From NCBI RefSeq assembly GCF_014084105.1, contig NZ_CP048289.1:4597922-4661921 (forward strand): a stretch of DNA of 64,000 nucleotides, given 5' to 3'. The stretch's first letter is position 1. Every line of letters begins with the position of its first letter. Below the pieces are notes generated by a model. The model did not search any database. It was not told the DNA's origin and saw nothing but the letters and a program-made list of their open reading frames with translations. Shown here one piece after another: positions 6,660-35,336 of the stretch. This DNA comes from Streptacidiphilus sp. P02-A3a (lineage in GTDB: Bacteria > Actinomycetota > Actinomycetes > Streptomycetales > Streptomycetaceae). The position numbers were made by a program, and so were the translations under genes.

Positions 6660-8979
<2,320 letters not shown>

Positions 8980-11268: not shown

Positions 11269-12038
11269 GTCCCCGTCTCCCACACACGTCAATGCTGGTG
11301 GGCTGGCATCTCGGCGTGACTACGATCCGCCGGGCGACGGCACGCGCCCGACGGTCCAGTGCCTGGGAAGCGCCCATGGGTGGCACTGCGGCGCACATCC
11401 CAAGCCGATCCGAGCTGTCCCCCGACCAGCGGCCCCAGTTGACCGTTACTGACCAAGACCCTAAGCCGACCGTGAGGATCCTCATAAGGGGACCGTGATA
11501 ATTCTTCCACGTAACGATCACCACACCGCTCTCTTGTTGACAAGCGGGACGCCCGCGATATATGGCACTCCAATGTCGGCGAACTTCGCGTCATTCGTCC
11601 ACGTCACCGCCGCCCCGGCGCTCCCCGCTGCGGCGCTCCGCGGGGCATCGTGATGCAGTATGCCATGGTTTGCCACAGCTATGATGACAGGCCATCAGAT
11701 CCGTGTCATCGCTGTCGGCGGTTTCGCCGCCGTTGTTTTCCGCAGCGGTGAAACTCCTTCCGCGAGGCAGTCGCTTTCGTGTAATGGCACTGCCGTCGCC
11801 GCCGGTCAGCGCGGGTCCCGGCGCTGGTCCTTGAACGACGAGGCAACTTCCTTGAGGGCGCTCACGGGCCGCGCATAGCTTCGTCTCGCGTAATTCGAAA
11901 GGGCTGGACTTCCCAGTCGCGGCCGAGCACTCCAGTCCTCTGCGTGCCGCTCCTCCGCGGCGCGAAAGACGGGTACGAATTCAGCTCGCATCGCGACTTT
12001 GTGTGACCCGCCCGTGGAGACGATGTGGAGATTGCGTG
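11269..12038. other. Long intergenic region between divergent units
   Basis: About 770 bp between the leftward regulator and the rightward methyltransferase. It holds a consensus-like promoter near 11537 and GGTCA direct repeats on the minus strand near 11437-11452. Short frames at 11660-11878 (+) and 11806-11991 (-) exist but have no recognisable family or ribosome site, so I do not call them. GC is lower here than in the flanking genes, as expected for regulatory DNA. Confidence 0.4.
11537..11564 (+). promoter_or_regulatory. Vegetative-type promoter candidate
   Basis: TTGACA (11537-11542), a 16-base spacer, then TATATG (11559-11564), a near-consensus housekeeping promoter that is unusual in such GC-rich DNA. 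It points rightward, toward the methyltransferase start about 475 bp away, so a long leader or an unseen small RNA could lie between. Confidence 0.45.
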
Positions 12039-13095: not shown

Positions 13096-14250
13096 ATGAA
13101 AGCCGAACTGGCGTCCTTACAGTTTCCGAGACGGTGCGACGAGGTCGCCCGGCTCCAAGAGCGGTCGGGCCGACAGGCGCTGACCGACAGCGACCACGAC
13201 CTGCTGGCCAAGCTCTACGAGGAGGCGTACGCCGAGCAGACCGCCGAGAGCGAGGTGATGCGGCTGCTGACCCGCTCGTTCAGCCGCGAACCCATCCCGC
13301 AGTACTACCGCTACGCCAACCTGCACGTCCACGCGTGGTACCTGGACCTGCACCAGACCGAGCCGGTGGCCGGCGCGGTGCTGGCCCTGGAGGCGACGCT
13401 GGCCGACCTGGACGCGGTCGAGCGCCGCGCCGCCGCGCAACTCACCGAGGCCGACAACACCGAGGAGCGGCTGCTGCGGCTGGAGGCGCTGCGCGAGCAG
13501 GTCGGGCGACTGCTGGTGGAGACCGGCGGCGACACGACCGCGGCCGAGATCATCGACCGGGCCCGCGACGACGCGCTGGCCCGCTGGCAGGCATCGGTGC
13601 TGACCCGCTGCTCCGGCTTCCTGGCCTCGGGCGACCACCACGAGAACATGTTCCTGCGGGCCGTGCAGGCATGCGAGTTGGCCTTCTACCTGATCCGCTA
13701 CTTCACCGTGCGGGCCCGGACGTCCATCGGCCGCGGGGACGACCAGGCGTACGCGCTGATGGCGCAGCTGGCCCAGTGCGCGGAACTGCCCAACCACATC
13801 TTCCACGTGCTCAAGACGCTCACCCCGGATCTCTTCCTGAGGTTCCGCGACGCCACCGGTGAGGCCAGTGCCGTCCAGTCGCTGAACTACCACATGATGG
13901 AACTGGTGCTCTACGGCTACGACGCGCGCAAGGTGGAGGCGTACTCGAAGTTCGACCACCTGCACCAGTTGACGATGCCGCCGCTGCGGTCCGTGCGTCC
14001 GCTGGGCGACGCGGTGCGCGAGGCGGGGGACCCGAGGCTGACCGAGGCGCTCGCCGAGGTCGAACGGACCCTGCTGACCTGGCGCGGCAGGCACTACGGC
14101 TTCGGTCGGCGCTACCTGCCGGGGATGGCGGGGTCCGGCGGCACCGAGGGCGCCGGCTACCTGCGGCGGTTCGTCCACAAGGACAACCTGGTCCCGGAGC
14201 CCATCACCACCGCACCCGGACTCGACCTGCTCGGGTTCGCGTTCCGCTGA
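13096..14250 (+). CDS. Tryptophan 2,3-dioxygenase-superfamily heme enzyme, divergent
   Basis: This 384-residue protein aligns by eye with tryptophan 2,3-dioxygenase (TDO). LKTLTPDLFLRFRDATGEAS then AVQSLNYHMMELVLYG matches TDO LETLTPxxxxxFRDxLGxxSGFQS, including the substrate-carboxylate Arg. TWRGRHYGFGRRYL then GMAGSGGTEGAGYLRR matches the heme-ligand RH and GTGGSSG motifs. The distal motif HQxxELWxK is instead VQACELAFY, so the active-site His (His55 in Xanthomonas TDO) is Val. Natural enzymes of this superfamily include true TDOs (daptomycin, taromycin kynurenine), PrnB and the monooxygenase MarE. The altered pocket favours chemistry other than simple kynurenine formation. It follows the methyltransferase by 58 bp and is probably cotranscribed. 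Confidence 0.75.
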   Translation: MKAELASLQFPRRCDEVARLQERSGRQALTDSDHDLLAKLYEEAYAEQTAESEVMRLLTRSFSREPIPQYYRYANLHVHAWYLDLHQTEPVAGAVLALEATLADLDAVERRAAAQLTEADNTEERLLRLEALREQVGRLLVETGGDTTAAEIIDRARDDALARWQASVLTRCSGFLASGDHHENMFLRAVQACELAFYLIRYFTVRARTSIGRGDDQAYALMAQLAQCAELPNHIFHVLKTLTPDLFLRFRDATGEASAVQSLNYHMMELVLYGYDARKVEAYSKFDHLHQLTMPPLRSVRPLGDAVREAGDPRLTEALAEVERTLLTWRGRHYGFGRRYLPGMAGSGGTEGAGYLRRFVHKDNLVPEPITTAPGLDLLGFAFR

Positions 14251-15144: not shown

Positions 15145-15903
15145 ATGCCTCGTTCTGCCTCGCGCACCAAGCCCACCGACTGGTCGATCCGCTTAGATTC
15201 GGTGTCTAAGGTGTACGAATCGACAAGAAGCCCGGTGCAGGCGCTGGATTCGGTGAGCATCCAATTGCGCCGTGGTACCTTCACCGCCGTGATGGGACCC
15301 TCCGGTTCCGGTAAGAGCACGTTCCTCAACTGCGCGGCCGGCCTGGACCGCCCGACCTCCGGCTCGGTCTGGCTGGGCGACATCGAGCTGTCGGGCCTCG
15401 ACGAGGTCAAGCTGACCGAGGTGCGGCGCGAGCGGATCGGCTTCGTCTTCCAGGCGTACAACCTGCTGGGCTCGCTGACGGTGGCGGACAACGTCACGCT
15501 GCCGCTGCGGCTCGCCGGCCGCAGGACCGACCGCGAGTTCCTGAACCAGGTCCTGACCTCGGTCGGACTCGGCGACTTCCTCAAGCGGCGCCCCAGCGAG
15601 CTCTCCGGTGGACAGCAGCAGCGGGTCGCGATCGCCCGCGCACTGATCACCCGCCCCGAGGCGGTGGTCGCCGACGAGCCGACCGGAGCGCTGGACACCC
15701 GATCCAGCAAACAGGTACTGGAACTGATGCGCCATGTGGTGGACGACATGGGGCAGACGGTGCTGCTGGTGACCCACGACCCGGTCGCCGCCTCCTACGC
15801 CGACTCCGTCGTGTTCCTGGCCGACGGCAAACTGGCGGGCGAACTGCCCCGGCCCACCTCCGAGGAGATCGCCTCACGCATGACGCACCTGGGCGAGTGG
15901 TGA
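15145..15903 (+). CDS. ABC exporter ATP-binding protein (MacB/LolD type)
   Basis: The 252-residue ATPase has Walker A GPSGSGKST (residues 51-59), Q-loop FVFQAYNLL, signature LSGGQQQRVAIARALI, Walker B AVVADEPTGALD and the switch His in LLVTHD. MacB/LolD-type ATPases pair with FtsX-fold permeases, and the partner starts inside its stop codon at 15897. The pair sits between the tailoring genes and the NRPS genes and is intact. It probably exports the peptide and gives self-resistance, as such pairs often do in peptide clusters. The N-terminal extension of about 15 residues is not essential to the fold. Confidence 0.85.
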   Translation: MPRSASRTKPTDWSIRLDSVSKVYESTRSPVQALDSVSIQLRRGTFTAVMGPSGSGKSTFLNCAAGLDRPTSGSVWLGDIELSGLDEVKLTEVRRERIGFVFQAYNLLGSLTVADNVTLPLRLAGRRTDREFLNQVLTSVGLGDFLKRRPSELSGGQQQRVAIARALITRPEAVVADEPTGALDTRSSKQVLELMRHVVDDMGQTVLLVTHDPVAASYADSVVFLADGKLAGELPRPTSEEIASRMTHLGEW

Positions 15904-18494
15904 TCCGCCGCGTCGGCCGGCTGATCCGCACCTTGGTGCCCTTCCCCAAGGACCTGTCGCTGGCCTGGAAGACCATCAAGGGACGCAAGGGCGGCTTCGT
16001 CGGCTCCTTCGTCGCGATCGCCGCGGGCTCGGCGGTGATCACCGCCTGCGGGATCCTGCTGATGTCCGGACTGAGCACCGGCGTCGCCCCCGAACGCTAC
16101 GCGGGCGCTGACGTCGTCCTCAGCGCGGGGCAGTCGTTCTGGCTGGACGAGAGCTCCGCCGTCCGCTACAGCGAGCGCGTCACCCTGCCCTCCGACAAGA
16201 TCGCCGCCGTCGCCGCGGTACCCGGCGTCAAGGCCGCCGTCGGCGACGTCGACATCGAACTGGGCGTGCTCGACTCCGGCGGCGGCGTGGTGGGCGGCCC
16301 GAACGGCTACCCGGTGTACGGGCACGGCTGGACGACCGCCGAACTCGGACCGTTCACGCTGGGCACCGGACACGCGCCCACCGCGTCCGGCGAGGTCGTC
16401 CTCGACTCCGGCCTGGCCTCGCGCGCCCACCTGTCGACCGGCTCCACGGTCCGGCTGGTGGTCGGCTCGATCGCCTCCTCCTACCGCGTCGTGGGCATCG
16501 CCGACCCGCCACCGGGCGGCCTGGACCGCCAGTCCGCGGTGTTCTTCACCGACGACCAGGCGACCAGCCTGTCCGGCCGCCCGGACCAGGTGGCCGCCAT
16601 CGGGGTCCTCGCCGACCCCGGCGTCACCCCCGACCGGCTGGCCAAGGCGATCACCGCCGCCGTCCCGGGCGTGGAGACCCACACCGGCACCGGACGCGGC
16701 GACGTCGAGTTCCTCGACGTCGGCGACGCCCGCAACCTGGTGGTCGACACCTCGGCGTCGTTCGGCGGCACGATGGTGCTGATCGTGGTCTTCGTGGTGG
16801 CCAGCACCCTGACCCTGTCGGTCCAGCAACGCCGCCGCGAACTGGCCCTGATGCGCGCCATCGGCGCCACCCCCAGACAGATCCACTGGATGATCGGCGC
16901 CGAGATGACCCTGGTCTCGCTGTCCGGCGCCCTGGCCGGCGCGATCCCCGGCATCATCCTCGCGTTCGTGATGCGCGGCGTGTTCATCCTGGCCGGCGCC
17001 ATGCCCTCGGACTACCAGATGGACGTGGGCATCCTGCCCATCCTCGCCTCACTGGTGCTGTGCGTGTTCAGCGCCCGGATCAGCGGCTGGCTGGTGGCCC
17101 GCCGCGTGGCCAGGACCAGCCCGGTCGAGGCGCTCGGCGAAGCCGCCGTCGAGCCCAAGAAACTCAGCCGGGCCCGACTGGTCATCGGCGCCCTGCTCAT
17201 CCCGGTCGGACTGCTGCTGACCCTGGGCAACGTCGCCGACTCGGGCGACTCGGTCGCCGACGTCGCCGCCAGCGCCGTCCTGTTCTTCGTGGTGGCCCTG
17301 GGCTGCCTGGGACCCGTACTGCTGCGCGCCGCCATCGCGCTGTTCGGCCCGTTCCTGAACAACCAGACCCGGGCCCACGGCTTCCTCGCCCAGTCCAACG
17401 CCCGGGCCAACGCCCGGCGGCTCAGCGCGGCGGCCACCCCACTGGCCATCGGCGTGACCCTGGCCGCCGTACAGATCTTCGGCGCCACCACCACGATCGC
17501 CGCCTCCCAGCAGCAGCTCAACGAAGGACTGCGGGCCGGCTACGTGCTGACCGCCTCGTCCGGCGCCGGAGTCTCCCCCCAGGTCACCGACGCCGTCAGC
17601 GGCGTCCCCGGAGTCGCCCTGGCCACCCCGGTGGCACGGATGCAGGTACTGCTGACCTTCGGCACCCAGACCGAGGTCTTCGCCGCCCAGGGCGTCACCC
17701 CCGACCGCCTCTCCGACACCATGGACCTGCAGGTCCTCAACGGCAGCATCGCGGACCTGAAGGACGGGACGGTCGCACTCAGCCAGGTGGCCGCCCGCCA
17801 GGTCGGCGCGAAACTCGGCGGGACGATCACCCTGCGGCTCGGCGACAGCACCCTGCTCACCCCCCGGGTGGTGGCGATCTACGAGCGCGGCCTGGGCTTC
17901 GGCGACGTTACCTTGCCCAACGACCTGGTCGTGGCCCACACCACCTCCCAGGTCGACTCCGCGGTACTGGTCGCGGCCACCGCCGGGACCGACCAGAAGA
18001 CGCTGGCCGCCGCACTGCGCAAAGCCGTCGCCCCCTACCCGACGGTCCAACTGGGCGGCCCCGCCGCCTTCGCGGTCGCACCCGCGGCCGGCGACTCGGG
18101 CGGCTGGGCCCTCAACCTCCTGTTCCAGACCCTGCTCCTGGGCTACATCGCCATCGCCGTGGTCAACACCCTGGTCATGGCCACCGCGGCCCGGGTACGC
18201 GAGTTCGCCATGCTGCAACTCATCGGCGCCAGCCGCGAACAGGTACGCGCCATGATGAACGGCGAGGCCAGGATCGTGATCTTCTCGGCGCTGCTGTTCG
18301 GCCTGCTGGCGGGAATCCCCTCGCTGGTCGGCATGAGCCTGGGACTGTCGAAGTCACCCGTCCCCAACATCTCCCTGCTCGGCCTGCTGGCGATCGTGGC
18401 GCTCACCGTCGCGCTCTCCTGGGGCTCGATCGCGACAGCCACCCGCTTCGCCATGCGCTCCGCGCCGGTCGACGCGATCGGCGGACGCGAGTAG
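15897..18494 (+). CDS. ABC exporter permease with two FtsX domains
   Basis: The 865-residue protein starts at GTG 15897 or 15900, overlapping the ATPase stop, so translation is coupled. Segment one is near residues 37-57 (FVGSFVAIAAGSAVITACGI), followed by an extracellular MacB-type periplasmic-core-like domain. Three segments in residues 290-410 include GTMVLIVVFVVASTLTLSV with the FtsX cytosolic motif RRRELALMRAIGATPRQI. A second extracellular region follows, and a second FtsX unit in about residues 740-860 includes REFAMLQLIGASREQVRAMM. This ten-segment layout is typical of actinobacterial peptide exporters. A hairpin follows it, separating it from the NRPS gene. Confidence 0.85.
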   Translation: MVIRRVGRLIRTLVPFPKDLSLAWKTIKGRKGGFVGSFVAIAAGSAVITACGILLMSGLSTGVAPERYAGADVVLSAGQSFWLDESSAVRYSERVTLPSDKIAAVAAVPGVKAAVGDVDIELGVLDSGGGVVGGPNGYPVYGHGWTTAELGPFTLGTGHAPTASGEVVLDSGLASRAHLSTGSTVRLVVGSIASSYRVVGIADPPPGGLDRQSAVFFTDDQATSLSGRPDQVAAIGVLADPGVTPDRLAKAITAAVPGVETHTGTGRGDVEFLDVGDARNLVVDTSASFGGTMVLIVVFVVASTLTLSVQQRRRELALMRAIGATPRQIHWMIGAEMTLVSLSGALAGAIPGIILAFVMRGVFILAGAMPSDYQMDVGILPILASLVLCVFSARISGWLVARRVARTSPVEALGEAAVEPKKLSRARLVIGALLIPVGLLLTLGNVADSGDSVADVAASAVLFFVVALGCLGPVLLRAAIALFGPFLNNQTRAHGFLAQSNARANARRLSAAATPLAIGVTLAAVQIFGATTTIAASQQQLNEGLRAGYVLTASSGAGVSPQVTDAVSGVPGVALATPVARMQVLLTFGTQTEVFAAQGVTPDRLSDTMDLQVLNGSIADLKDGTVALSQVAARQVGAKLGGTITLRLGDSTLLTPRVVAIYERGLGFGDVTLPNDLVVAHTTSQVDSAVLVAATAGTDQKTLAAALRKAVAPYPTVQLGGPAAFAVAPAAGDSGGWALNLLFQTLLLGYIAIAVVNTLVMATAARVREFAMLQLIGASREQVRAMMNGEARIVIFSALLFGLLAGIPSLVGMSLGLSKSPVPNISLLGLLAIVALTVALSWGSIATATRFAMRSAPVDAIGGRE

Positions 18495-18671: not shown

Positions 18672-18744
18672 CCGCCGCTCTGGGGAGACTGGGTGATCAG
18701 ACATGGCTTCCGCCGTGGAAGTGCAGCCGGAGGGGAGACCGCAC

Positions 18745-21700
18745 ATGACCCACGAGGGGCGCCCAGCAGCAGGACCGACGTCGGACCCGGCCGTCGGCCA
18801 TCCGCTGACCCGCTTTCCCGTAGACCGCCCACGACCCGCCGAGCCCGACGAGGCCACCGCCACCCACCGGTTCACCCTCGACCGCGCGCTCACCGCGGAC
18901 CTGCGCCGACTCGCCCGAGCGGCCGACGCCACCGTGCCCGGCGCACTGGCCGCCGCGGGCCTGGTCCTGGCCGCGGCGTACGCCGGACAGGACGAGGTGA
19001 CCGCGACCGTCCGCGCCCGCTCCACGGCGCCCGCCGACGCACCGGTCCCGCTGCACGCGACCGTCGACAGCACGATGCCGTTCGACCACCTCCTGGACCG
19101 GGCATCGCGCGCCGCGGGCACCGAACTGCCCACCGAGTTCGCCCTCGCCGACATCGTGCTGCGGTTCACCGAACGCGACGGCGCCCTGGACGCCGACGTC
19201 GACTACCACCCCGAGGTACTCGACGCGGCCACCATCGAGCACCTGGCCGCCACCTACCGCACCCTGCTGGCCGACGCCGTCGCCCGCCCCGGACGACCCC
19301 TGCGCGAACTGAGGCTGATACCCGACGCCGAGTCGCACCGCGTACTCCACGACTGGAACGACACCACCTCCGCGTTCCCCCCGCACTCCAGCCTGCCCAG
19401 CCTGTTCGCCGAGCAGGTACGGCTGTCCCCGGACAAACCCGCCGTCCTGTTCGGCGACGACCGGCTCACCTACGCCGAACTGAACGAGCGGGCCAACCGG
19501 CTCGCCCACCGCCTGCTCGCCGCGGGCGTCACCGCCGAGTCCCGGGTCGCGCTGCTGCTGGACCGGTCGGTGCACGTGGTCGTGTCCGTCCTGGCCGTGG
19601 TCAAAGCCGGCGCGGCCTACGTCCCGCTGCACGCCGCCTACCCCCAGGACCGCGTCCGCTTCGTCCTGGCCGACGTCGGCGCCCAGGTCCTGCTCACCGA
19701 CCGGGCCATGGCACCCAGGACCACCACCACCGACGTCCCGGTCCTGCTCGTGGACGACCCGGCCACCACCGCCGGCCAACCCGCCCACGACCCCGAACCG
19801 GACCCGGACGCCCAGCAGCTCGCCTACATCATGTTCACCTCGGGCTCCACCGGCACCCCCAAGGGCGTCGCCGTCACCCACCGCGACGTGGTCGCCCTGG
19901 CCTGGGACCGCCGCTGGCGCGAAGCGGCCCACCGGCGCATCCTCTTCCACTCCCCGCACGCCTTCGACGCCGCGACCTACGAACTGTGGGTACCGCTGCT
20001 GACCGGCGGCGACATGGTCATCGCCACCGAGGAACCCACACCCGCCCTGGTACGCGACCTGATCGCCGAACACGCCGTCACCGCCGTCTTCCTCACCTCC
20101 GCCCTGCTGCGCCTGTTCGCCGAGGAGGCCCCCGACTGCTTCAAGGGCGCGGCGACAGTGATCACCGGCGGCGAGGTGCCCTCACCCGAGGCCCTGGAAC
20201 AGGTCATCACCCACTGCCCCGGCACCCTGGTCATCAACGCCTACGGACCGACCGAGGCCACCACCTACGCCCTGTTCCAGGAACTCACCCTGGAACAGGT
20301 ACGCACCCGCGCCGTACCGATGGGCCGACCGCTCGACAACACCCGCCTGTACACCCTCGACGCGTGGCTGCGCCCGGTCCCGGTCGGCGCGCCGGGCGAA
20401 CTGTACATCGCGGGCGACGGCCTGGCGCGCGGCTACTTCGGCCGGGCGCCGCTGACCGCCGAGCGGTTCGTGGCCGACCCCTTCGGCACGGGGGAGCGGC
20501 TGTACCGCACCGGCGACGTCGTGCGCTGGCGCGCCGACGGGACGATGGACTTCCTGTACCGGGCCGACAAGCAGATCAAGATCCGCGGCTTCCGGATCGA
20601 GATCGGCGAGATCGAGGCCGCGCTCACCGCGCTCGACGGCGTCGCCGACGGCGTGGTCGCCGTCCACGAGACCCGCGGCGCCCGGCACCTGGTCGCCTAC
20701 GTGGTACCCGAACGCGGCCGGGCCGCCGAGGTGGCGCAGTGGCGCGAGGCCCTGGCCCTGCGGCTGCCGAGCTACGAGGTACCGTCCTGGTTCATCCCGA
20801 TGGAGGCCCTGCCGCTGTCGAACAACGGCAAGGTCGACCGCGCCGCCCTGCCCGCACCGCGGGTCGACCTGCTGACCGCGGGGGACCACGTCGAACCGCG
20901 CACCGACACCGAGCGGCTGCTGGCCCAGGTGTGGGCCGAGGTGTTCGGCGTCCAGCGGATCGGCGTCAACGACAACTTCTTCGCCTCCGGCGGCGACTCC
21001 ATCCTGGCCATCAAGGTCGTCTCCCGGGCCCGCGCCCACGGCCTGCGGCTGACCGCCAAGGACCTCTTCCTCACCCCGACCGTCGCGGAACTGGCCCGGG
21101 CCGCGACCCGGGACGACAGCGGACCCGACCCCACCCCGGCCCCCACCCCGCTCGTCCAGCTCACCGCCGACGAGGCCGAGCACATCGCCGCGGGCGGACC
21201 GGTCGAGGACGTCTACCCGCTGACACCGATGCAGAGCGGCATGCTCTTCGACGCGCTGATGACCGAGGACACCGGGCTGCACCTGATCCAGTTCGACCTG
21301 GTCCTCGACCACGTCGAGGACCCGGAACTCCTCGGCCGGGCCTGGCAGCGGACCGCGGACCGGCTACCGGCCCTGCGCACAGCCGTGCTCTGGACGGACG
21401 TCAGCACCCCGGTCCAGGTGGTGCGGGCCACGGCCACCGTGCCCGTCACCCAGCACGACTGGCGGCAACTGCCGCGGAGCGAACAGCGCGAACGCCGACA
21501 CGCGCTGCGCGCCGCCGACCGCGCGGCCGGAATGGACCTCGCCACCGCCCCCCTGGCCAGGGTCACCGTCATCCGGCTCACCGACACCAGCGTCCGCGTG
21601 CTGTGGTCGATGCACCACCTGGTGCTGGACGGATGGAGCAGCACCGAACTGCTCACCGAGGTGGCCGCCGACTACGCCCGGCTGCGCGACGGCGACGGAC

Positions 21701-24367
21701 CGGCGCCACGACCCCGGACACCGTTCCGGGACTACCTGCGATGGCTGGGCGACCAGGACCAGGCCGCGGCGGAGGCCCACTGGCGCGGCGTGCTCGGCCC
21801 CCTGACCACCCCGACCCGGCTGCCCTACGACGACCGGCCGCCCCGGGCTACCGCCCGCGCGCCACCGCAAGGGTGGAGGTGGACATCGCCCCCGACCTGT
21901 CCGCCCGGCTGACCGAGGCCGCCAAGCGCACGAAACTGACCACCAGCACCCTCCTGCAAGGCGCCTGGGCACTGCTGCTGGCGCGCTACAGCGGCAGCCC
22001 GGACGTCTGCTTCGGCGGCACCGTCTCCGGCCGGACCCCCGACCTGGCCGGCGTCGACTCGATCATCGGGATGCTGGTCAACACCCTGCCGGTACACGTA
22101 CGCGTGGACCGCGCCCAGGACCTGGAGACCTGGCTGGCCGACCTACAGGCGCGGCAGGCCCGGGCCCGGGACTTCGAGGCCGTCTCGCTGACCCCAGGCC
22201 CAGGCCTGGAGCGGCCTGTCGCCGGCGACAACCTGTTCGACAGCATCATCGTCTTCGAGAACTTCCCCTTCGACGAGCACGCCTTCACCGCCCACGGCCT
22301 GCGACTGAGCCACTTCGACCACGAGGTCGGCTCGGGCGCCGCACTCGGCGTCGTCGTACACCCCGGCGACGGGATCACCATGCGGGTCCACTACGACCCG
22401 GCCCTGTTCGAAGCGGACACCGTGCACCGGATGACGGGCCTACCTGCGGACCCTGCTGGAGGCCTTCGCCGACCACACCGCACGCACCGTCGGCGACCTG
22501 CCGGCCCACTCGACCGCCGAACACCAGGTGGTCATGGGCGACCCGGCCGCCACCGCCACCGGCCACCAGGCCGAGCACCGGATGCAGGACCTGGTCACCG
22601 CACAGGTACGGCTGCGCCCGCGGGCGGTCGCGGTGGAACTCGGACGACCAGCGGCTGACCTACGCGGAACTGGACGCGCGGGGCGAACCAGCTGGCGCAC
22701 CACCTCATCGAGCGCGGCGTCGGCAGCGACGTCCTGGTGGGCATCGCGATCGAACGCAGCCTGGACCTGTTCGTCGCCATCCTGGGATCCTCAAGGCGGG
22801 CGGCGCGTACGTGCCGCTGGACCCGGACTACCCGGCCGAACGCCTGGCCGTCACCGTGCCGAGACCCGCCCGCGGGTGGTGCTGGCCCACGAGCACGGCA
22901 TCGCCCGCTTCCCGCGGACCGACGCCGAACTGGTCTTCCTGGACCGGGACCGCCCGGCCATCGCCGCCCACCCGGACACCGACCCCGGACCGCGCGGCAG
23001 CGCCCGCGACCTGGCCTACGTCGTCTACACCTCGGGCTCCACCGGCCGACCCAAGGGCGTGATGGTCGAGCACCGCTCGCTCTACAACACCGTGACCGCG
23101 GTCGTCGGACCCTACGGGCTCACCCCCGGCAGCCGGGTGTTCCAACTGTGCTCCATGAGCTTCGACACCGGCGTCCAGGACCTGTTCACCACCTGGGCCG
23201 CCGGCGGCACGATGGTGGTCCCGGCCCCCGACGTCGCCCGCAACGGCGCCTACCTGGTCGAGCACCTGCTCGCCGGCAAGGTCACCACCGCCTCCATCCC
23301 GATCACCGTCCTGTCCTCACTCGACTCCGGCTCCCTGCCCGGGATGGACACCATCCGGGTCGGCGGCGACATCGTGGTGCCCGAGGTGCCGAGGCCTGGG
23401 CACGCCACCACCGGGTGATCAACAACTACGGGCCGACCGAGGCCGGGGTGACCGTGAGCCTGTTCGAGGTCGAGCAGGGAGCCGGCTACCGCAGCGTGCC
23501 CCTGGGCAGGCCCTGGCCAACACCCGCGCCTACGTCCTCGACGACCACCTGTCCCGGTACCGATCGGCGTGCCCGGCGAACTGTACGTCGGCGGCATCGG
23601 CCTCGCCCGCGGCTACGTCGACAACCGGGCCAAGACCGCCGAACGGTTCGTCGCCGACCCCTTCGGCCCGCCCGGCTCACGGCTCTACCGGACCGGCGAG
23701 TGGTGCGCTGGCAACCCGACGGCCTGCTGGACTTCGTCGGCCGCACCGACGACCAGGTCAAGATCCGGCTTCCGGGTCGAACCCGGCGAGATCGAGAGCG
23801 TCCTGCTGCGCCACCCCGCGGTCGCCGAGACCGCGGTGTCGGTGTGGCCGGACGACAAGGGCAACAAGCGACTCGTCGCCTACGTCGTGGCCCGGCCCGG
23901 GACACCGGCACGAGCGCGGACGAACTGCGCCGCCACCTCGGCGCCACCCTGCCCGGCTACATGATCCCGACCGCGATCGTCCGACTGGAGCGGATGCCGC
24001 TCAACCACAACGGCAAGCTCGACCGGTCCGCGCTGCCCGCACCGACCCGCCAGGACGGCGCCGGCGCCGCGTACGTCGCCCCCGGCGACCCGACCGAGGA
24101 GGCACTGGCCCGGATCTGGTCGCAGGTCCTGGGCATCGAACGGGTCGGCACCGCGGACGACTACTTCGCCCTCGGCGGCGACTCCCTCAACAGCCTGCGC
24201 ATCGTCGCCAGGATGCGCACCGCCTTCGGCGTCGAGGTCACCCCCCGGGACCTCTTCGAGGAACCCACGATCGCCGCCCTGGCCGCGACCATCCGCGACC
24301 GGATCCTGGCCGGGGTACTGGAGACAGCCGCCGGCACCGTCCTGAACGCGCCGGACCGCCCCTCTGA
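18745..24367 (+). CDS. NRPS, modules 1-2: (truncated C)-A-PCP-C-A-PCP, frameshifted
   Basis: ATG 18745 is chosen because GGAGGGGAG lies 7 bases upstream; ATG 18703 has no such site. Order: the C-terminal half of a condensation domain with no HHxxxDG (about 18.86-19.3 kb); A1 ([31 protein letters not shown]); PCP1 (FFASGGDSI, Ser codon near 20998); C2 with [10 protein letters not shown] near 21611; A2 ([31 protein letters not shown]); PCP2 ([10 protein letters not shown]). Hand-read codes are DAYFIGATYK for A1 and DTQSRGNVTK for A2; I know no exact match to either. The frame is clean to about 21840, then shifts a dozen times. The end is probably TGA 24365-24367, just before the next gene, although the uncorrected frame runs to 24620. 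Confidence 0.85.
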
Positions 24368-24385
24368 CATGGGAGAGAGAACAGC

Positions 24386-27300
24386 ATGGAACTGCCGTCC
24401 GTCGCGAAGGACCGGCTGTCGCAGCTGCCCGACCACGTGCGCGAACTCGTCCTGCGGCAGCTCGCCGGCGCGGCCGGGCCCGCACCCCAGGACCGCCCGA
24501 TCACCCCGGCGCCCCGCGACGGCGCACTGCCGCTGTCGGTGGGCCAGCAGGGACTGTGGTTCCTGGCCGAACTCAACCCCGACAGCGTCGAGTACAACGC
24601 GCCCAAGGTGCTGCGCCTGACCGGCGACCTGCACCCGCGGGCCCTGCGCGCCGCGCTCGACGACGTCGTCGCCCGGCACGAGGCACTGCGCACCACCATC
24701 GGCGAGGCCGACGGCCACGGCGTCCAGGTGGTGCACCCACCCGCCCCGGTACCGGTCGAGTACACCGACCTGACCGACCTGCCGGAACCCGAACGCGGCC
24801 GCCGCACTCGACCGCCGCCTGGAACACGAGGGCTCCACCCCGTTCGACCTGCGCCGCGGCCCCCTGTTCCGGGTGGCGCTGCTGCGGCTCGCCGCCGACG
24901 AACACGTCCTGGTCCTGGGCCTGCACCACATCGTCGGCGACGGCTGGTCCATCGGGCATCCTGACCGAGGAACTCAACGCCAGGTACACCGCCCACACCC
25001 GCGGCCAGGCCCCGGCACTACCGCGACTCCCGATCCAGTACGCCGACTTCGCCGCCTGGCAGCAGCAGCGCCTGGCCGGACCCGAGGTGGCCGGACAGAT
25101 CGACTACTGGCGCGGGCAACTGGCCGCACTGCCCCCGGTGGAACTCCCGGCCGACCGCCCGCGCCCCCCGGTCCTCGGCTCCACCGGCGCACTGCACCCG
25201 ATCACCGTGCCGCGACCACTGGCCCAGCGCCTGACCGACCTGGGCACCCGCGGCGGCGCCACCTTGTTCATGACCCTGGTCGCCGCGAGCCAACTGCTGT
25301 TCGCCCGCTACTCGGGACAGCAGGACATCGCCGTCGGCTCGGTGACCGCGGGCCGCGGCCGCGCCGAACTGGAACCCCTCATCGGCTACTTCAGCAACAC
25401 CGTCGTGCTGCGCTCCCAGGTACGCGAGGAACGGACCTTCACCGACTTCCTCACCGACGTCCGCTCCACCGTCCTGGACGCGTTCGCCAACGACGAGATC
25501 CCGTTCCAGCGACTGGTCGACATCATCCGCCCGGAACGCGACCCGAGCCGCCCGCCCCTGGTCCAGGTCATGGTCAACCTGCAACACCTGCCACCGGCGC
25601 ACAGCCACCTACCGGGCCTGCGGGTCACCGAGATCCCCCCACCCGTGCACGTGGCCAAGTTCGACGTCTCCTTCGACTTCTTCGAGCACGACGGCGCACT
25701 CACCGGCCACATCGAGTACAGCACCGACCTGTTCGACCCGCCCACGATCGAGCGGATGAGCGGCCACCTGCTGACCCTGCTCGACGGCATCGCCGCCCAC
25801 CCGGACGAACCGATGCGGGCACTGCCCATGCTCACCGAACCCGAACTACGGCAACTGGCCACCGACTGGAACGGCCCCCACCGTCGACTTCGGCCCTCCC
25901 GCTGCCTGCACGAACTCTTCGACGACCAGGCCGCGCGCACCCCCGACGCGGTCGCGGTCAGCTGCGCCGACCAGCGACTGACCTTCGCCGCCCTGGCCAC
26001 CCGCGCCAACCAGCTCGCACACCACCTGACCGGCCTGGGCGTGGGCCCGGGAACACTGGTCGGCGTGTGCGTGAACGCGGCGTCGAGGCGATGGTCGCCC
26101 TGCTGGGCGTGATGAAGTCCGGCGCCGCGTTCGTCCCCCTGGACCCGGACTACCCCGCCCAGCGGCTGAACATGATGCTGGACGACGCCGCCGCACCCGT
26201 GGTGGTCACCGAGACCGCCCTGGCCGACCGCGTCACCGCCCACCCGGCGACCGTGGTGTACCTCGACCGCGACCGGCCCACCTCGACACCTGCCGGGCAC
26301 CCCACCCGCCGTCCGGGGCCCACCGTGGACGACCTCGTCTACGTGATCTACACCTCGGGCACGACCGGCAAGCCCAAGGGCGTCCTGATCAACCACCGCA
26401 ACATCCACCACATCCTGCGGTCCTGGAACGCCCGCTACCGGCTCGACGAGATCCGCGGCCGGGCCCTGTGCGTGGCCAGCTTCGGCGTCGACCTGTTCCT
26501 CGGCGACTTCCTGTTCTCCGCGCTGTTCGGCGGCGAAATGGTGGTGTGCCCGGCGGACGTGGTGACCGACCCGCCCACCCTGGTCGACCTGATCGCCGAG
26601 GTCCGGCCGCAGATCCTGGCCACCACCCCCTCACTGGCCCGGGCCATCAGCACCGAACTCGGCTGGCGCGGCCTGACCCTGGACTCGCTGCGGCTGCTCT
26701 CCCTGGGCGCCGAGGGCTGGCTGGCCGGCGACGCCGCCGACCTGCTCGACCACGTCGGCCCCGACACCCTGGTGGTCAACGCCTACGGCGCGACCGAGAC
26801 CACCGTGGACTCCACCGTGTTCGCCCTGCGCGGCGACCCGGTCGAACCGTCGGCGTTCGTCCCCATCGGCACACGATGACCAACACCAGCGTGCACATCC
26901 TGGACGACACCGGCCGCCCGGTACCCGTCGGAGTACCCGGCGAGCTCTACATCGGCGGCGCGGCATCGCCCAGGGCTACTGCAGCGACCCGAACTGACCG
27001 CCGAACGCTTCCCCCACGACGTCCTGGGACCGGGCACCGGCCGCTTCTACCGCACCGGCGACGTGGTGCGCTGGCGCGGCGACGGCAACCTGGAGTACCT
27101 CGGCCGGGCCGACGACCAGGTCAAGATCCGCGGCTTCCGGGTGGAACTCGGCGAAGTCGAGACCGCCCTCGCCCGCCACCCCGAGGTGGCCACCGCGGCG
27201 GCCGTCGCCCGCCGCAACGGCTCCGGCCACACCCGGCTGTTCGGCTACGTGGTACCCGCCGGCACCCGGGCACCCGACCTCGCCGCCCTGCGGACCTTCC

Positions 27301-30300
27301 TCACCGCCCACCTCCCCAGCCAGGCCGTCCCCTCGGCGATCATGGTGCTCGACGCCCTGCCGATGACCCCGAACGGCACCCTGGACCGGCGCGCCCTGCC
27401 CGCCATGGACGAACCCGCCGCCGACCCCTCCCACCGCGTCCCGCCACGCACCCCCGTGGAAACCGCACTCGTCGAGGTCTGGGCGAAGGTCCTGGGCGTG
27501 GAACCCGACGGATCGGCGTCGAGGACAACTTCTTCAACCTCGGCGGCGACTCGATCCTCAGCCTCCAGGCCGTCTCCCTGGCCCGCCGCGCCAACCTCCG
27601 GCTGACCACCAAGCAGATGTTCCAGCGGCAGACCATCGCCGAACTGGCGGGCGAGGTCACCGTGCTCACCGCCACCGGCGCCGAACAGGGCCCGGTGACC
27701 GGCCCCGGTACCCCTGACCCCGGTCCAGCAACTGGTACTTCGAGGAGTTCCCCGAAGCCCCCGGCCACTTCAACCAGTCCCTGTACCTCGCACTCGACCC
27801 CGACACCGACCCCGACGCCCCTGCGCGCCGCCGTCACCGCCGTACTCGACCACCACGACATCCTGCGGATCCGGGCCGAACACGTCGCGGCCGCTGGCAG
27901 CAGCACCACCCGGCCACCACCGACCACCCGGCCCACCCCACCGTGTTCGAGCACCTGGACCTGTCCGCCCTCGACGACACCGCACAGGACCAGGCCGCCC
28001 GCACCGCGATCACCGCCGCCCAGACCGGATTCGACATCCGCACCGGCCCCGCTGTTCCAAGCCTGCTGCTCACCCAAGGCGGCGCCCACGCCCCCCGGCT
28101 GTTCCTCGCCGCGCACCACTACGTCGTCCGACCGCGGTCTCCTGGCGGGTGATCCTGGCCGACCTGGACACCGGCTACCGGGCAGGCGGCGCACGGCCGC
28201 CAGGTCGACCTGGCGCGAAGTCCACCTCGTTCCGCAGCTGGGCCCACCGCCTCACCGCACTGGCGGCCGAAGGCGGCTTCGACACCGAACTGGACTACTG
28301 GACACGGGTCGAGAAGGCCACCCTGGACGCCGCCGCCCTGCCGGTGGACCGCCACGGACACAACACCGCCGGCTCCGCCCGCACCCTGACCCGGCGACTG
28401 AACGCGGACCGCACCGACGCACTGCTGCGCAACGTACCCGAGGTGTACCGGACCCAGGCCAACGACGTACTGCTCAGCGCCCTCGCCCGGGTCCTGCGCG
28501 ACTGGGCCGGCGGCACCGTCCCGATCGAACTGGAGGGCCACGGACGCGAGGACCTGTTCGACGACGTCGACCTGTCCCGCACCGTCGGCTGGTTCACCAC
28601 CGTCTTCCCCCTCGTCCTGGAACTCCCCGAGGACCACGACTGGGGCACCACCGTGAAGGCCGTCAAGGAGGAACTGCGCGCCGTCCCCTCCCGCGGCCTC
28701 GGCTACGGCGCCCTGCGCTACCTCACCACCCCGGGCACACTCGGCGGCGGCCGCCAACCCCAGGTCGGATTCAACTACCACGGCCGCTTCGGACACCGAC
28801 CCCGGCGGCAGCGGACTCTTCCGCGGCTGGTGCCCGAACCCGGTCCCCGACCGCGGCCCCGACCAGGCCCGGCAGTGCCTGATCGAGGTCACCGGCATGG
28901 TCCGCGACGGCGAACTGGAATTCGGCTGGGAGTACTCCGGGAACGTCCACCACGAGGAGACCGTGGCCCAACTGGCCGAGGCGTTCCTCACCGCCCTGGA
29001 ACAGGTCATCGAACACTGCGCCCTGCCCGGCGCCGGCGGCTGCACCCCCTCCGACTTCCCGCTCGCCGCACTGGACCAGGCCGCCGTGGACACGATCGTC
29101 GGCGACGGCCGATCCGTCGAGGACCTCTACCCGCTCACCCCGATGCAGAGCGGCATGCTGTTCCACTCCCTCGACACCGACACCGACAACGGCGACGTCT
29201 ACCTCACCCACTTCGCCGCGATCCTGGACGGCGTGGACGACCCGCGGCAACTGGCCGACGCCTTCCAACACGTCGTGGACCGCACCCCGATCCTGCGCAC
29301 CGCGGTGGTCGGAACCGGCGCGGACACCCCCCTGCAGAGCGTCCACCGCGACGTGCGCCTGCCGGTGACCCACCTGGACTGGAGCACACTGACCCCCCAG
29401 GACCGCGACACCCGCTCCCGCACCCTGTGGCAGAGCCTGCCCGCCCTGCGACTCGACCTGACCCAGGCCCCGCTCATGCGGCTGACCATCGCCCGCCTGC
29501 CCGGAGCGAGCGTCCAGCTCTTCTGGTCCTCCCACCACCTGCTGCTCGACGGCTGGAGCTTCGCCGACGTCCTGGCCCAGGTCTTCGGGGAATGGGCCGC
29601 ACTGGGCGGCGCACCGACCCCCGCCCGCAAACCCCGCCGCCCCTACCGCGACTACGTGCAGTGGCTGGCCGACCAGGACGGACACCGCCGCCCGAACCCA
29701 CTGGCGCCGCACCATGCACGGCTTCACCGCCGCCACCCCACTGCCCTACGACCGGGCACCCCAGGCCGCCCACGCCACCCGCTCCGCACACGACACCCAC
29801 CTGCGGCTGCCCGCCGACCGCTCACACCGGCTCTACACGTTCGCCAAGAACGCCCGACTGACCGTCAACACCGTCGTCCAGGGCGCATGGGCACTGCTGC
29901 TCGCCGCCCACAGCGGCGAACGCGACGTGTGCTTCGGCGCCACCGTCTCCGGCCGACCCGAGAACCTCGCGGGCGCCGACGAGATCATCGGCCTGTTCAT
30001 CAACACCCTGCCGGTACGCACCACCCTGGACCGCGACCTCGACCTGGTGACCTGGCTGCGCCGGATCCAGGACGAACAGGTCGAGACCCGCCAGTTCGAA
30101 CACGTCTCACTGGCACAGGTCCGCGGCTGGAGCGAGACCCCCCGGGAGTCGAACCTCTTCGACAGCATCGTCATCTTCGAGAGCTTCCCCTACGACCGCG
30201 ACGCCGCCTCCCGGCACGGCCTCACGGTACGCGAGAGCAACGGCGCGGAGGAGACCAACTACGCGCTCGCGCTCACCGCCTACACCACCGACGAACTGCA

Positions 30301-33300
30301 CCTGCGCCTCGGCTACGACCCGCTCCTGTTCGACCGGGACACCGCCGAACGGCTCACCCGCCGCCTGTCGACCCTGCTCGACGCCTTCGCCGACCACCCC
30401 CACTCCCCACTCGCCTCGCTCCCGCTGCTGCCCGGCCACCGAACAGGCCCTGCTGCACGAGTGGAACGCCACCACCCGCCCCACCGGGACAACCCACCAC
30501 CATCGAACTGTTCGAACAACAGGCCGCGGCCACCCCCGGAACACCGCACTGGTGCACCGCGACACCCTCAGCTACGCCGAACTGGACACCCGCGCCAACC
30601 GGGCTCGGCCCACCACCTTGACCGCCCTGGGCCTGGGCCCCCGAGAAGATCGCCGCCCTGGCCTGCCCACGCACCCCCGACCTCCTGATCGCGATGCTGG
30701 CCGTCCTCAAGACCGGCGCGGCCTACCTGCCCCTGGACCTGGACCACCCCCGCGAACGCCTCGCCCCAATGCTGCGCGACGCGGCCCCGGCCCTGGTCCT
30801 GACCGCCGACAACCACCGTCCCCGACCTGCCACCGCACACCCCACCCTCTCCCTCACCGACCCGCCGTGACCGCCGCACTGGCCCACCACCCGGCCACCA
30901 GCCCCGACCGTCCACCCCCGCACACCCCGAGAACGCCGCCTACACGCTCTACACTCCGGCTCCACCGGCCAACCCAAAAGGCGTCGTGGTCACCCGGGCC
31001 AACCTGCGCAACTTCGTCCTCGACATGCGCGACCGCACCGCGATGACCCCCAGGACCGGCTGCTGGCCGTGACCACCCGTCGGCTTCGACATCGCCCACC
31101 TGGAGCTCTTCGTCCCCCTGATCAGCGGCGCGACCGTGGTACTCGCCGACAAGGGAACTGGTCCTCGACCCCCAGCAACTGCGCCGCACCGTCCCACGAC
31201 CAGCACATCACCGTGGTACAGGCGACACCGAGCTGTGGCGCGGCGTCCTGGAAGGCGCCCCCGACATCCTCACCCGGCTGCGGGTCTTGGTCGGCGGCGA
31301 GGCACTGCCCCAGGAACTCGCCACCGCCCTGACCGCCGGATCCCCGTCGGTGACCAACGTGTACGGGCCGACCGAGACCCACCATCTGGTCGACCGCCGC
31401 GCACCTGACACCCACCACCACCGGCGCCCCGCCGATCGGCAGGCCGATCGCCAACACCCGCGTCCACGTGCTCGACGCCGACCTGCGCCCGACCCCGCCC
31501 GGCGTCCCCGGCGAGCTGTACATCGCCGGCGCCGGAGTGGCCCGCGGCTACACCAACCGCACCGCCCTGACCGCGACCCGCTTCGTGGCCGACCCCTACG
31601 GGCCCCCCGCCGAACGCATGTACCGCACCGGCGACGTGGTCCGCCGACGCACCGACGGGAACCTGGAATTCGTCGGCCGCGCCGACGACCAGGTCAAGAT
31701 CAGGGATTTCCGGATCGAACTCGGCGAGATCGAAACCGTCCTCGCCACCCACCCGCAGGTCGGCTCGGCCGTCGTGGTGGCCCGCGAGGACCACCCCGGC
31801 AACCAGCAACTGGCCGCCTACTTCGTCCCGACCACGGACACACCACCCACGGACGCGGACCTGAGGACCCACCTGGAACGCCTGCTACCGGGCTACATGG
31901 TGCCCGCGTTCCTGATCGCGACGGACACCTTCCCGCTGACCCCCAGCGGCAAGGTCGACCGACGGGCCCTGCCCGCCCCGAGCCCAGCGGCAACCGGCAC
32001 CGACACGCCACGAGTCGCCCCGAGCCAAGGCGCACAAGCCACCCTCGCCGCGATCTGGGCGGACGTCCTCGGCCTACCGGCCGACCGGATCGACGCGACC
32101 AGCGACTTCTTCGCCCTGGGCGGCAACTCCGTGCTGAGCGTCCAGGTCGTCTACCGCGCCCGACGCGCCGGATGGCACCTCGTCCCCAAGGACCTGTTCA
32201 CGCACCCCACCATCCAACGCCTGGCCACAGCGGCGGAACCGGCCACCGAACCCACCACCGAACCCACCACCGAACCCACCGCACCCCAACCGCACACCCC
32301 CCAGCAGACCGGCACCCCACCGGCCACCACCCCCGACACGGCAGGCCACCCGGCCCTGACCCCCGCCTTCCTGGCCACCCGCCTGACCGAACTGGCCCGC
32401 ACCCACCGGGTACCGGGCGCACAACTCGCCCTGCGCCACGCCGGCCGGCTGATCACCGTCGAAACGGGGGAGCGGACAGCGGGAACCGGCCTGCCGGTCA
32501 CCACGGACACCGTGTTCCCCATCGCCTCCCTGACCAAGCCGGTGACCGCACTGCTCGTCCAACTCCTGGCAACCCAAGGACGCCTCGACCTCGACGCCCC
32601 GATCGGCGCCTACCTGCCCGAACTCCCCGCCACCAGCCCGGTCGGCCGGATCACCACCCGCCAGGCCCTGAGCCACACCGGCGGACTGGTCGCCGCGATC
32701 GACGAACGGACACCCAGCACCGACCGCCGCACCTGGGTCCAACGGCACTGCGACGAAACCGCCGTCACCCACCAGCCGGACACCGCGTTCTCCTACTCCG
32801 ACGTCGGCTACGTACTCGCGGGCCGCCTGGTCGAAGCACTGACCGGCCTGGACTGGCGAACCGCCGTGCAATCGCTGCTGCTGCGCCCCCTGGCAATCAC
32901 CGCCGCCTTCAACGGGCAACCGGGACAACGCCCCGCCGCCCAGGGTCACCTGCTCCTCGACCGCCCGCTCCCGATACCCGAACAGACCTTCTCCCCACTG
33001 GACGACCCCGCCGTGGCACTGGCCGCCACCGCGGCCGACCTGCTGCGCCTGGCCGCCGTCCACGACCACACCGCACCCGGCGTACTCGACCCCGCGGCCG
33101 CCGACGCGATGCTCCACGACCGGACCGCAGACCTGGCCGTGGGACCCTTCGGCCTCGCCGACGGCTGGGGACTGGGCTGGGCCGTGTTCCACGGCGCGCA
33201 CGGCGACTGGCACGGCCACGACGGCAGCGGCGACGGCACCTGGTCCCACCTGCGCTTCGACGCCGCCACCGGCACGGCCGTCGCGCTCACCACGAACGCC

Positions 33301-33672
33301 GGCACCGGCGCCGCCCTGTGGGAGGACCTCCTCGCCGAACTCGGCGCGGCCGGCCTCCACGTGGCCAACCACTCCGCCCGCACCCTGTCCGCCCCCGCGG
33401 CACCGGTGGCCGCACCGGCCGAGTGCGCCGGACACTACGCCAACGGCGACTGGGACTGCCAGGTCCAGGCACACCCCGAAGGACTCACCCTGTCCGTCGG
33501 ACACGGGCCGCGCTCCACCCTGACCTGCCACGCCGACCTGCGGTTCACCACCCAGGGCGGCAGCGGGATACCGGGCACCGGCCGGTTCCTGCGCGACCCG
33601 GACACGGGCCGGATCGAGCTGCTCCAGCTCGCCGGGCGGCTGCTGCGCCGCACCGCGGCGACAGCGGGGTGA
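24386..33672 (+). CDS. NRPS, modules 3-4 with PBP-type cyclase: C-A-PCP-E-C-A(Gly)-PCP-TE, frameshifted
   Basis: ATG 24386 follows GGGAGAGAG. Order: C3 (LPLSVGQQGLWFL, LHHIVGDGWS); A3 (YTSGTTGKPKG); PCP3 (NLGGDSILSL, about 27540); an epimerisation domain (LTPVQQWYFEEFPEAPGHFN, HHYVV followed by VSWRVIL, near 28.12 kb); C4 of the type that follows E domains ([25 protein letters not shown]); A4 with code DILQLGVIWK, glycine type; PCP4 (ALGGNSVLSV); a Pro/Thr-rich linker; and from about 32355 a beta-lactamase/PBP-like domain. That last domain has SLTK (Ser codon 32527), YSD (Tyr 32794) and HDG (His 33217), plus LSHTGGL, instead of an alpha/beta-hydrolase thioesterase. Some twenty frame breaks fall before 31.45 kb; the part after that is one clean frame. 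Confidence 0.85.
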
Positions 33673-33757: not shown

Positions 33758-35336
33758 AGGTCACCGAGCAGCCCGACTTGCTCTTGTCCGTGACCACCGT
33801 CGAGGTGTACGGGCACGCGACGCCGATCCAGGTGAGGTCGTTCCACAGTTGGGACCACGACTCCCGGGGATCGCGGCACACCAGGAACTGGGCGCCCTTG
33901 TCGGCGACCGGCACGCTGATCTTGAACGTGCCGCTGAGCGTGCAGCTCTGGAACAGGGGACTGAAGGTCGCCCGGTCCACGCCGACCGCGATGACGACGT
34001 CGGTGCCGTCGGCGGGCCTGCCGAAGTCGGCGTAGGAGTTCTGCGCGCTGTAGACGTGCGGGAGGCCGTACTGCGGACCGTACTTGTCCAGCGCGCCCGC
34101 GAGGCCGTAGTGGTTGGCGTAGATGACGGCGTGCGCCCGGTCCTGCGGGGACAGCGACTGGTCGACGCCGGCGACTTCCTGCGCCAACTGCGGCCAGCCC
34201 GCCTGGTCGAGCTGGGAGACCCCCAGTTCCTTCATGACCGGGTTCGACCCGTACCACGCGAGCGGCAGCACCGGCAGCATCATCACGGCCGACAGCAGCA
34301 CGTTGAACACCAGCGCGCTGCCGGTCACCGAGCGGCGGAAGGCGGTCTGCGCCCACCCCACGGCCACCACGGAGCCCGCCGCCAGCAGCACCACCTGGAG
34401 ACCGGCCGTGTACTCGGGGTCCCCGCCGATGATGATCAGCAGCACCGACATGAACAGGTAGCCCAGCGCGACCGACCGGTACGGCCGCCACTGCGGGCGG
34501 CGGAACAGCGCCACCAGCCCGGAGATCCACACCGGGGTGAGGAACAGGCCGATCATCAGGATCTGGAACGGCACGAAGGCGACCCGGGAGTCGGCTCCCA
34601 GCGCGATCGTCAACGCGGCGCTCATCTTGATCGCGGGCCAGCCGTGCGCGATCTGCCACGCCACCATCGGCGCCGAGATCAGCACGGCTATCGCGCACCC
34701 CGCCACGAAGAGCCGACCGCGCAGGATCGTGCGCGGACCCAGCACCAGCAGGCCCACCAGCAGGGCCAGGACCAGCAGCACGATGAGGTTCTTGGCGAGC
34801 ATGCCCACGCCGGTGACCGCGCCGATGGCCAGCCACAGCCGGTTGTCCGCGGTGCGCAGCAGGCGGATGAACAGCCAGCCCAACGTCACCCAGCTGAGCA
34901 GGTCGGGGCCGTTGGTGGTGAGCATGTGCCCGGCGTTGAGGGTGACGACCGACCCGGCCGTCGCGGCGGCGGCGAAGACCTGGGCGCCGCGCGCGCCGCC
35001 GAGTTCACGTGCGATCAGGCCCGACACCCACACGTCCAGGCAGGCCAGCAGGGCCGGCACGACACGCAGTCCGATCAGGTTGTCGCCGAAGAGGAAGGTC
35101 TCCACTCTGGCGATCACCGCGACCAGCGGGGGCTGGTCGACGTACCCCCACGCCAGGTGCCGACTGGACACCCGGTTGTACAACTCGTCGACGTGGTAAC
35201 CGTAGCGCCCCGAGAGGGACAGCAGCAGCACACCCACCACGACGGAGACGCTGAGCAGCGGCCATCGGTACAGCGCGGGGACTGTCGTTAAACGGTCCTG
35301 GGAAGATGCCGAGGGATTTCTGGTAGTGGTCGCCAC
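33756..35336 (-). CDS. GT39/ArnT-like membrane glycosyltransferase
   Basis: The product of about 526 residues has roughly a dozen membrane segments after a short cytoplasmic N-terminus. The first extracellular loop has the GT-C acidic motif in GRYGYHVDELYNRVSSRHLA, followed by WGYVDQPPLVAVIAR, as in PMT/ArnT-type enzymes that move sugars from polyprenyl phosphate. The C-terminal soluble tail holds five cysteines or so. GTG 35336 is preferred since AAAGGTG precedes it closely; an in-frame ATG lies at 35414. It is convergent with the NRPS and separated by a strong terminator, so it probably is not part of peptide synthesis, although peptide glycosylation cannot be excluded. The acceptor is unknown. 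Confidence 0.75.
   Translation of the reverse strand: MATTTRNPSASSQDRLTTVPALYRWPLLSVSVVVGVLLLSLSGRYGYHVDELYNRVSSRHLAWGYVDQPPLVAVIARVETFLFGDNLIGLRVVPALLACLDVWVSGLIARELGGARGAQVFAAAATAGSVVTLNAGHMLTTNGPDLLSWVTLGWLFIRLLRTADNRLWLAIGAVTGVGMLAKNLIVLLVLALLVGLLVLGPRTILRGRLFVAGCAIAVLISAPMVAWQIAHGWPAIKMSAALTIALGADSRVAFVPFQILMIGLFLTPVWISGLVALFRRPQWRPYRSVALGYLFMSVLLIIIGGDPEYTAGLQVVLLAAGSVVAVGWAQTAFRRSVTGSALVFNVLLSAVMMLPVLPLAWYGSNPVMKELGVSQLDQAGWPQLAQEVAGVDQSLSPQDRAHAVIYANHYGLAGALDKYGPQYGLPHVYSAQNSYADFGRPADGTDVVIAVGVDRATFSPLFQSCTLSGTFKISVPVADKGAQFLVCRDPRESWSQLWNDLTWIGVACPYTSTVVTDKSKSGCSVT

Follow-up and report, generated by a model that had tools for sequence, protein, structure and literature searches.

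The window analyzed here is a 64,000-nucleotide stretch of the Streptacidiphilus sp. P02-A3a genome, corresponding to G000:C1:4597922-4661921 of a 9.33 Mb contig. A conserved block at ~4.1–35.3 kb of the window is syntenic with another genome, G176, and contains the following genes in order, the Bif names being those of the biffamycin cluster.

4123..5037, + strand: Fe(II)/α-ketoglutarate amino-acid β-hydroxylase, VioC-like (BifN-like); fragmented, with pieces (at least 52 residues) 65–81% identical to genes of G176 and G098
5337..7263, + strand: two-component pair (histidine kinase and LuxR-type response regulator); fragmented
7361..8976, + strand: tryptophan halogenase (BifK-like) in two pieces; PF04820, E = 1.8e-94; 79–87% identical to relatives
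10093..10317, − strand: MbtH-like protein; PF03621 on the G176 homologue
10378..11319, − strand: ArsR-like HTH regulator; weak family matches
12036..13034, + strand: O-methyltransferase; PF00891, E = 7.2e-33; 86–91% identical to relatives
13096..14247, + strand: tryptophan 2,3-dioxygenase (TDO)-like enzyme; PF03301, E = 5.6e-16; 83–90% identical to relatives
15145..18494, + strand: ABC exporter (ATPase, 15145-15900; FtsX/MacB-type permease, 15897-18494)
18697..24329, + strand: BifC-like NRPS gene, A1-PCP1-C2-A2-PCP2; indel-broken in the window copy
24341..33672, + strand: BifB-like NRPS gene, C3-A3-PCP3-E3-C4-A4-PCP4-cyclase; start approximate, indel-broken in the window copy
33759..35336, − strand: membrane mannosyltransferase-type protein (PMT_2), BifP-like; PF13231, E = 8.7e-21; 70–71% identical to genes in the corresponding position of three relatives

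The block contains the biffamycin-type set of a VioC-like hydroxylase, a Trp halogenase, a methoxylation pair, MbtH, and a mannosyltransferase. The hydroxylase gene of G176 matched TauD as well as the VioC and GntD models, for which its scores did not reach the equivalog cut-offs. The TDO-like enzyme probably performs the Trp hydroxylation step, and together with the O-methyltransferase it would correspond to BifE/F. BifA (MFS exporter), BifO (polyprenyl-P-mannose synthase), and BifI (flavin reductase) were not recognized among the Pfam-tested ORFs of the window, where frame fragmentation may conceal them. At 60766-61848, 25 kb from the cluster, lies a GT2-family protein whose family match is weak and below the cut-off; it is not assigned to the cluster.

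Several other features lie outside the block. A protein with a YbaK-type aminoacyl-tRNA editing domain is encoded beside the cluster at 35574-36095 (− strand). It is followed by an open frame at 36416-37165 with a signal-like N terminus (judged by eye) and many PQQAPQYAA repeats, for which no Pfam family was found; arrays of 27-base and related units occupy 36523-36922 inside this frame. Three blocks of ~290 bases, spaced ~500 bases apart and 79–84% alike, lie at 37479-38797. An element with a DDE_5 transposase occurs in two near-identical, mutually inverted copies at 54143-55609 (+ strand) and 57611-59077 (− strand), with a DDE_3 transposase gene between them at 56152-57240 (− strand).

The limits and domains of the BifB-like gene were assigned from tblastn with the intact G176 homologue, motif positions, and the Pfam domains of intact relatives. 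In the window, the NRPS coding sequence at ~21.8–31.4 kb is scattered over all three frames. The contig provides a second copy: positions 4582753-4744369 recur inverted as 4906000-4744430, with a spacer of ~60 bases, over at least 161.6 kb per side, a lower bound because the comparison was extended to 4906000. Since the whole window lies inside this inverted repeat, whose sides meet at ~4744400, the cluster is present twice in the contig. The two sides are probably terminal inverted repeats, with the ends of the linear actinomycete chromosome fused by the assembler; no plasmid record matched. Between the two copies there are 450 indel events (440 of one base) but only 31 substitutions, and 91 of the differences fall within 18650-33700 of the window. 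Breaks interrupt the BifB-like gene at different places in the two copies, and the BifC-like gene is a single 1865-residue frame in the second copy. The large excess of one-base indels over substitutions is typical of sequencing error. In the second copy, a stop-free stretch of 1004 residues spans A4, PCP4, the linker, and the cyclase up to the end of its N-terminal half, with separate breaks farther on in the cyclase. The PCP4-linker-cyclase junction is in frame in both copies. The E3 core motif was readable in the second copy only; the motif scan did not find it in the window copy. Across both copies, the motif order in one protein is C-A-PCP-E-C-A-PCP-SurE, as in the intact relatives, and that of the partner NRPS is A-PCP-C-A-PCP, as in BifB-type systems. 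The A4 pocket residues, read from the second copy, are D-I-L-Q-L-G-V-I-W, which we take to be a Gly-type code, the pocket positions being likewise assumed.

The C-terminal end of the BifB-like protein contains the following features, all in frame +1.

32041..32229, + strand: PCP4 (peptidyl carrier); GGNSV at 32119-32133; PF00550, E = 2.1e-14
32230..32349, + strand: Glu-Pro-Thr-rich linker; Glu-Pro-Thr stretch at 32236-32292
32350..33669, + strand: PBP-type thioesterase (SurE-like) domain; AmpC-fold catalytic part at ~32380-33309, C-terminal lipocalin-like β-barrel at ~33430-33654
32527..32538, + strand: SLTK; nucleophile Ser at 32527-32529 and Lys at 32536-32538, equivalent to SurE S63 and K66
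32668-32688, + strand: LSHTGGL
32794..32802, + strand: YSD motif; Tyr at 32794-32796, Asp at 32800-32802 at the position of SurE N156
33217..33225, + strand: HDG motif; His equivalent to SurE H305

The sequence-only reading had named these four motifs and a Glu-Pro-Thr-rich linker; the linker is present, and the motifs were found exactly where that reading had placed them. That reading also described one clean frame shared with A4 and PCP4. The frame is indeed free of stops from 31354 to 33669 and joins PCP4, linker, and cyclase; of A4, it includes just the C-terminal part (from ~31.38 kb). In this single frame, Pfam detected AMP-binding_C (E = 3e-13), PCP (E = 2e-14), and Beta-lactamase PF00144 (E = 1.6e-51), and the codon-position G+C values (0.77/0.57/0.89) show a coding-frame pattern. 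Because the catalytic motifs and the PCP share one stop-free frame, the cyclase domain is fused in frame to PCP4. The linker, predicted to be disordered (pLDDT < 50 at model residues 77-102 and 104-106), differs in sequence and length among relatives.

In a PDB sequence search, SurE and Ulm16 were by far the closest solved proteins, and class C enzymes scored far lower. The predicted structure, for which comparison with SurE had been suggested, also gave SurE (PDB 6ksu/6ksv) and Ulm16 (8fek) as the best fold matches, aligned over 401–421 residues and through residue 543. Strands at model residues 469-542 of the prediction form the lipocalin-like C-terminal domain that the two enzymes also possess. 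Besides the AmpC/PBP fold, the domain shares with them the Ser-x-x-Lys motif, the Tyr, and the His of HDG. We take the Asn of the PBP-type thioesterase (TE) tetrad to be SurE N156. According to a review, this tetrad consists of Ser, His, Asn, and Lys (PMC11735501). The window domain has Asp in place of the Asn of YxN, so the catalytic set is not identical to that of SurE; kinship to the SurE family is unaffected, as judged from the tree described below. SurE and Ulm16 are described as products of separate genes that act in trans (PMC11735501), unlike the window domain. PDB 8kem, 'PKS domains-fused AmpC EC2', is by its title an AmpC fold fused to an assembly-line enzyme, but to a polyketide synthase, and its fold match was much weaker (Foldseek E = 7.7e-16).

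Fused relatives were sought in genomes and proteins. A scan of genome contigs yielded five loci matching the cyclase domain. In three of them, from Streptomyces novaecaesareae, Actinoplanes sp. TFC3, and Kibdelosporangium philippinense, the cyclase ends one uninterrupted frame of 3030–3123 residues and is 68–76% identical to the window domain; the other two are 26–29% identical. These three long frames share the Pfam set of the fused proteins described next. From 5.8 billion proteins, those of NRPS size were searched and the best 2629 candidates by common words were scored. Among the matches listed, all 16 protein clusters had the same Pfam set and lengths of 3071–3131 aa, and their named organisms were Streptomyces, Kitasatospora, Couchioplanes, and Actinoplanes. 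A sample of 394 genomes from the family contained 11 with a match at 1e-100, comprising four fusions (the window's own included) and seven separate genes. A standalone SurE-type query matched 60 of the 394 genomes at 1e-50, and no fusion beyond these four was found among the matches with frames of readable length; the remaining matches were judged by open-frame length (at most 604 aa), and some were cut by contig ends. At the level of the class, 5 of 394 genomes matched at 1e-75, with a fusion only in the window's own. Up to four best candidates per genome were scored in the genome searches, and more divergent fusions may have escaped both these and the protein search.

Outside the bif type, the cyclase was a separate gene at all 14 loci examined (7 + 4 + 3). 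NRPS motifs were present in the fetched stretch of 12 of the 14, with a single motif in one of the 12, and none were found at L073 and L075 (8–9 kb fetched each). Long stop-to-stop frames in six genomes (G107, 3506 aa; G109, 2769 aa; G200, 1190 aa; G112, 961 aa; G309, 937 aa; and G125, 696 aa) were considered as further fusions and rejected as shadow frames of neighboring genes or leader sequence, the cyclase being its own gene in each. The window's own genome also holds a standalone SurE-type cyclase, L014 (G000:C1:5149117-5150415), which is 46% identical to the fused one. Standalone cyclases in G107 (G107:C5:34870-36129) and, similarly, in G192, G200, and G204 are 53–54% identical and belong to the closest nonfused relatives. 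These four start right where the upstream NRPS gene ends; unlike the fused domain, they have their own start codon, lie out of frame with the upstream gene, and carry YSN. An epimerase-type motif is the last NRPS motif before them; the fused NRPS instead ends with a PCP that receives its residue from a Gly-type A4. Epimerase-type ends are as expected at the four standalone loci because trans enzymes take D-residue substrates (PMC11735501). Their arrangement is possibly a picture of the prefusion state.

A careful tree was built from 79 sequences: 19 distinct cis domains, 56 trans cyclases, and, as the outgroup, four additional PF00144 proteins from the window's own genome. The trans set comprised 44 of 119 listed standalone proteins (themselves 119 of 413 reported), seven loci of the family sample, three from the window's own genome and genus, SurE, and Ulm16. 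G098, G176, and P0015 duplicate P0002 (nearly), P0004, and L017, respectively, and were omitted; P0018 and 23 further trans sequences (near-duplicates and others) were dropped beforehand. The 19 cis domains formed one clade (100/100), with a single change to the fused state in 100% of 200 bootstrap trees, nested in a well-supported larger clade together with 19 standalone sequences. The window domain was placed among NRPS-linked cyclases, away from the PF00144 outgroup, in the kind of phylogeny with in-cis and in-trans relatives that the sequence-only reading had proposed. A quick tree, which included P0018 and several wrongly oriented sequences, required two changes. The simplest reading is that a standalone cyclase gene was fused once and that the fusion then spread among actinomycetes. 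Together, the sequence, predicted fold, phylogeny, and intact fused relatives sustain the proposal of a SurE/Ulm16-type domain fused in cis to the terminal module of a small-peptide NRPS; its cyclase activity is a prediction.

The catalytic Ser, Lys, Tyr, and His are kept in all 75 cis and trans sequences. Twelve positions are alike in at least 18 of the 19 cis domains and shared by at most 2 of the 56 trans ones. The third residue of YxN is Asp in 19/19 cis domains, as opposed to Asn in 54 and Ser in 2 of the 56 trans sequences; the 119 listed standalone proteins have Asn there in 110 cases and Ser, Gly, or Thr in the other 9, with no Asp. The other fixed cis changes near the active site are Gly to Ala before the Ser and Thr/Asn to Ser after HDG. 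P0018, a truncated 376-aa protein on a 1,240-base contig from which its fusion state is not visible, is 75% identical to the window domain and grouped with the cis domains, within their clade, when the quick tree was built. As it has YSN, the YSD signature is strong rather than absolute. Bulkier residues at Gly235 let SurE accept a C-terminal Gly, according to the review (PMC11735501). SurE and Ulm16 have Gly at this pocket position, whereas the 19 cis domains carry Val (9), Ala (8), Ser (1), or Thr (1) and never Gly; the position is not diagnostic because Ala also occurs in 24/54 trans sequences. It is possible, if rather doubtful, that the cis cyclases are a distinct catalytic variant in which one fusion was followed by the Asn to Asp change and the other fixed changes near the active site, tuning an enzyme tethered to its own PCP for closure of a strained tetrapeptide ring at a C-terminal Gly. 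The Asn kept by P0018 weakens this idea.

The closest described system is that of biffamycin A, reported to be made in Streptomyces albidoflavus S4 by BifC (A-PCP-C-A-PCP) and BifB (C-A-PCP-E-C-A-PCP-SurE), and the embedded SurE domain of BifB was called unique among NRPS megaenzymes in that report (PMC13285481, May 2026). Our locus shares with it the module order of both NRPSs, the cis-embedded SurE domain, the VioC-like hydroxylase, Trp halogenase, mannosyltransferase, and MbtH, and the Gly predicted at position 4 (PMC13285481). It differs in the organism, in having an ABC exporter whereas BifA (MFS exporter), BifO, and BifI were not recognized among the Pfam-tested ORFs, and in lying inside a large inverted repeat, twice in the contig. 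The window NRPS pair fits the BifB/BifC kind, a kinship judged from architecture and gene content with the BifB sequence unaligned. A literature search, mainly of open-access text, revealed no further report recognized as describing an in-cis PBP-type TE, nor one among papers on PKS-fused AmpC or Asn156. The in-cis fusion is already published for biffamycin; what this analysis adds is a class of at least 19 members, apparently of single origin, with a catalytic-motif signature.

We propose that the domain is very probably the C-terminal cyclase of a BifB-type NRPS in a biffamycin-type cluster, releasing a head-to-tail cyclic tetrapeptide; the chemistry, product, and order of events given here are deduced from the architecture, gene complement, and catalytic motifs of the locus and from the predicted fold. 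The two NRPS proteins would assemble the tetrapeptide. Because the A4 pocket has a Gly-type code, PCP4 would present a peptidyl-Gly thioester, and the flexible linker would let the fused SurE-like domain reach PCP4. The Ser at 32527 would take the peptide as an acyl-enzyme, with the Lys as the putative general base. The free N-terminal amine of residue 1 would then attack the acyl-enzyme to give the ring by a putative macrolactamization. Having Asp rather than Asn in YxN could affect catalysis. Tailoring would involve chlorination and methoxylation of a Trp, hydroxylation of a basic residue, and mannosylation of the ring.

A domain of this fold could do something other than close a ring, as the AmpC/PBP fold also spans esterases, DD-peptidases, and β-lactamases. 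PBP-type TEs can hydrolyze small substrates, PenA giving a cyclization to hydrolysis ratio of 1:2.7 with a tetrapeptide (PMC11735501), and the Asp replacing the Asn of YxN would fit the release of a linear tetrapeptide by a hydrolase or a proof-reading thioesterase. We regard this as improbable: SurE and Ulm16 are by far the closest solved proteins, the lipocalin-like C-terminal domain is present, and biffamycin is reported to be a ring whose production was abolished when the SurE coding sequence of BifB was deleted (PMC13285481). It is barely credible that the domain is a self-resistance β-lactamase or PBP decoy fused by chance. The class C β-lactamase fold would suit such a role, but class C enzymes score far below SurE, and the domain is the last one of the fused NRPS in each of the 19 cis members used and is placed by the tree among cyclases encoded next to NRPS genes.

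The many frame breaks in the window copy, with some in the other copy, could instead mean that the NRPS gene has become a true pseudogene, with the cyclase left as a relic. This is very unlikely, given that the differences between copies are of the error type described above, the breaks are placed differently in the two copies with the BifC-like gene intact in the second, and the catalytic set and codon pattern are preserved.

The 19 distinct synthetases with the same fusion indicate a recurring class of one origin, with named members in Streptomyces, Kitasatospora, Actinoplanes, Couchioplanes, and Kibdelosporangium. They offer a panel of candidate cyclases for tetrapeptides, whose rings are difficult to close by chemical means, and the contrast of YSD with YSN would provide a sharp test of the role of the third motif.
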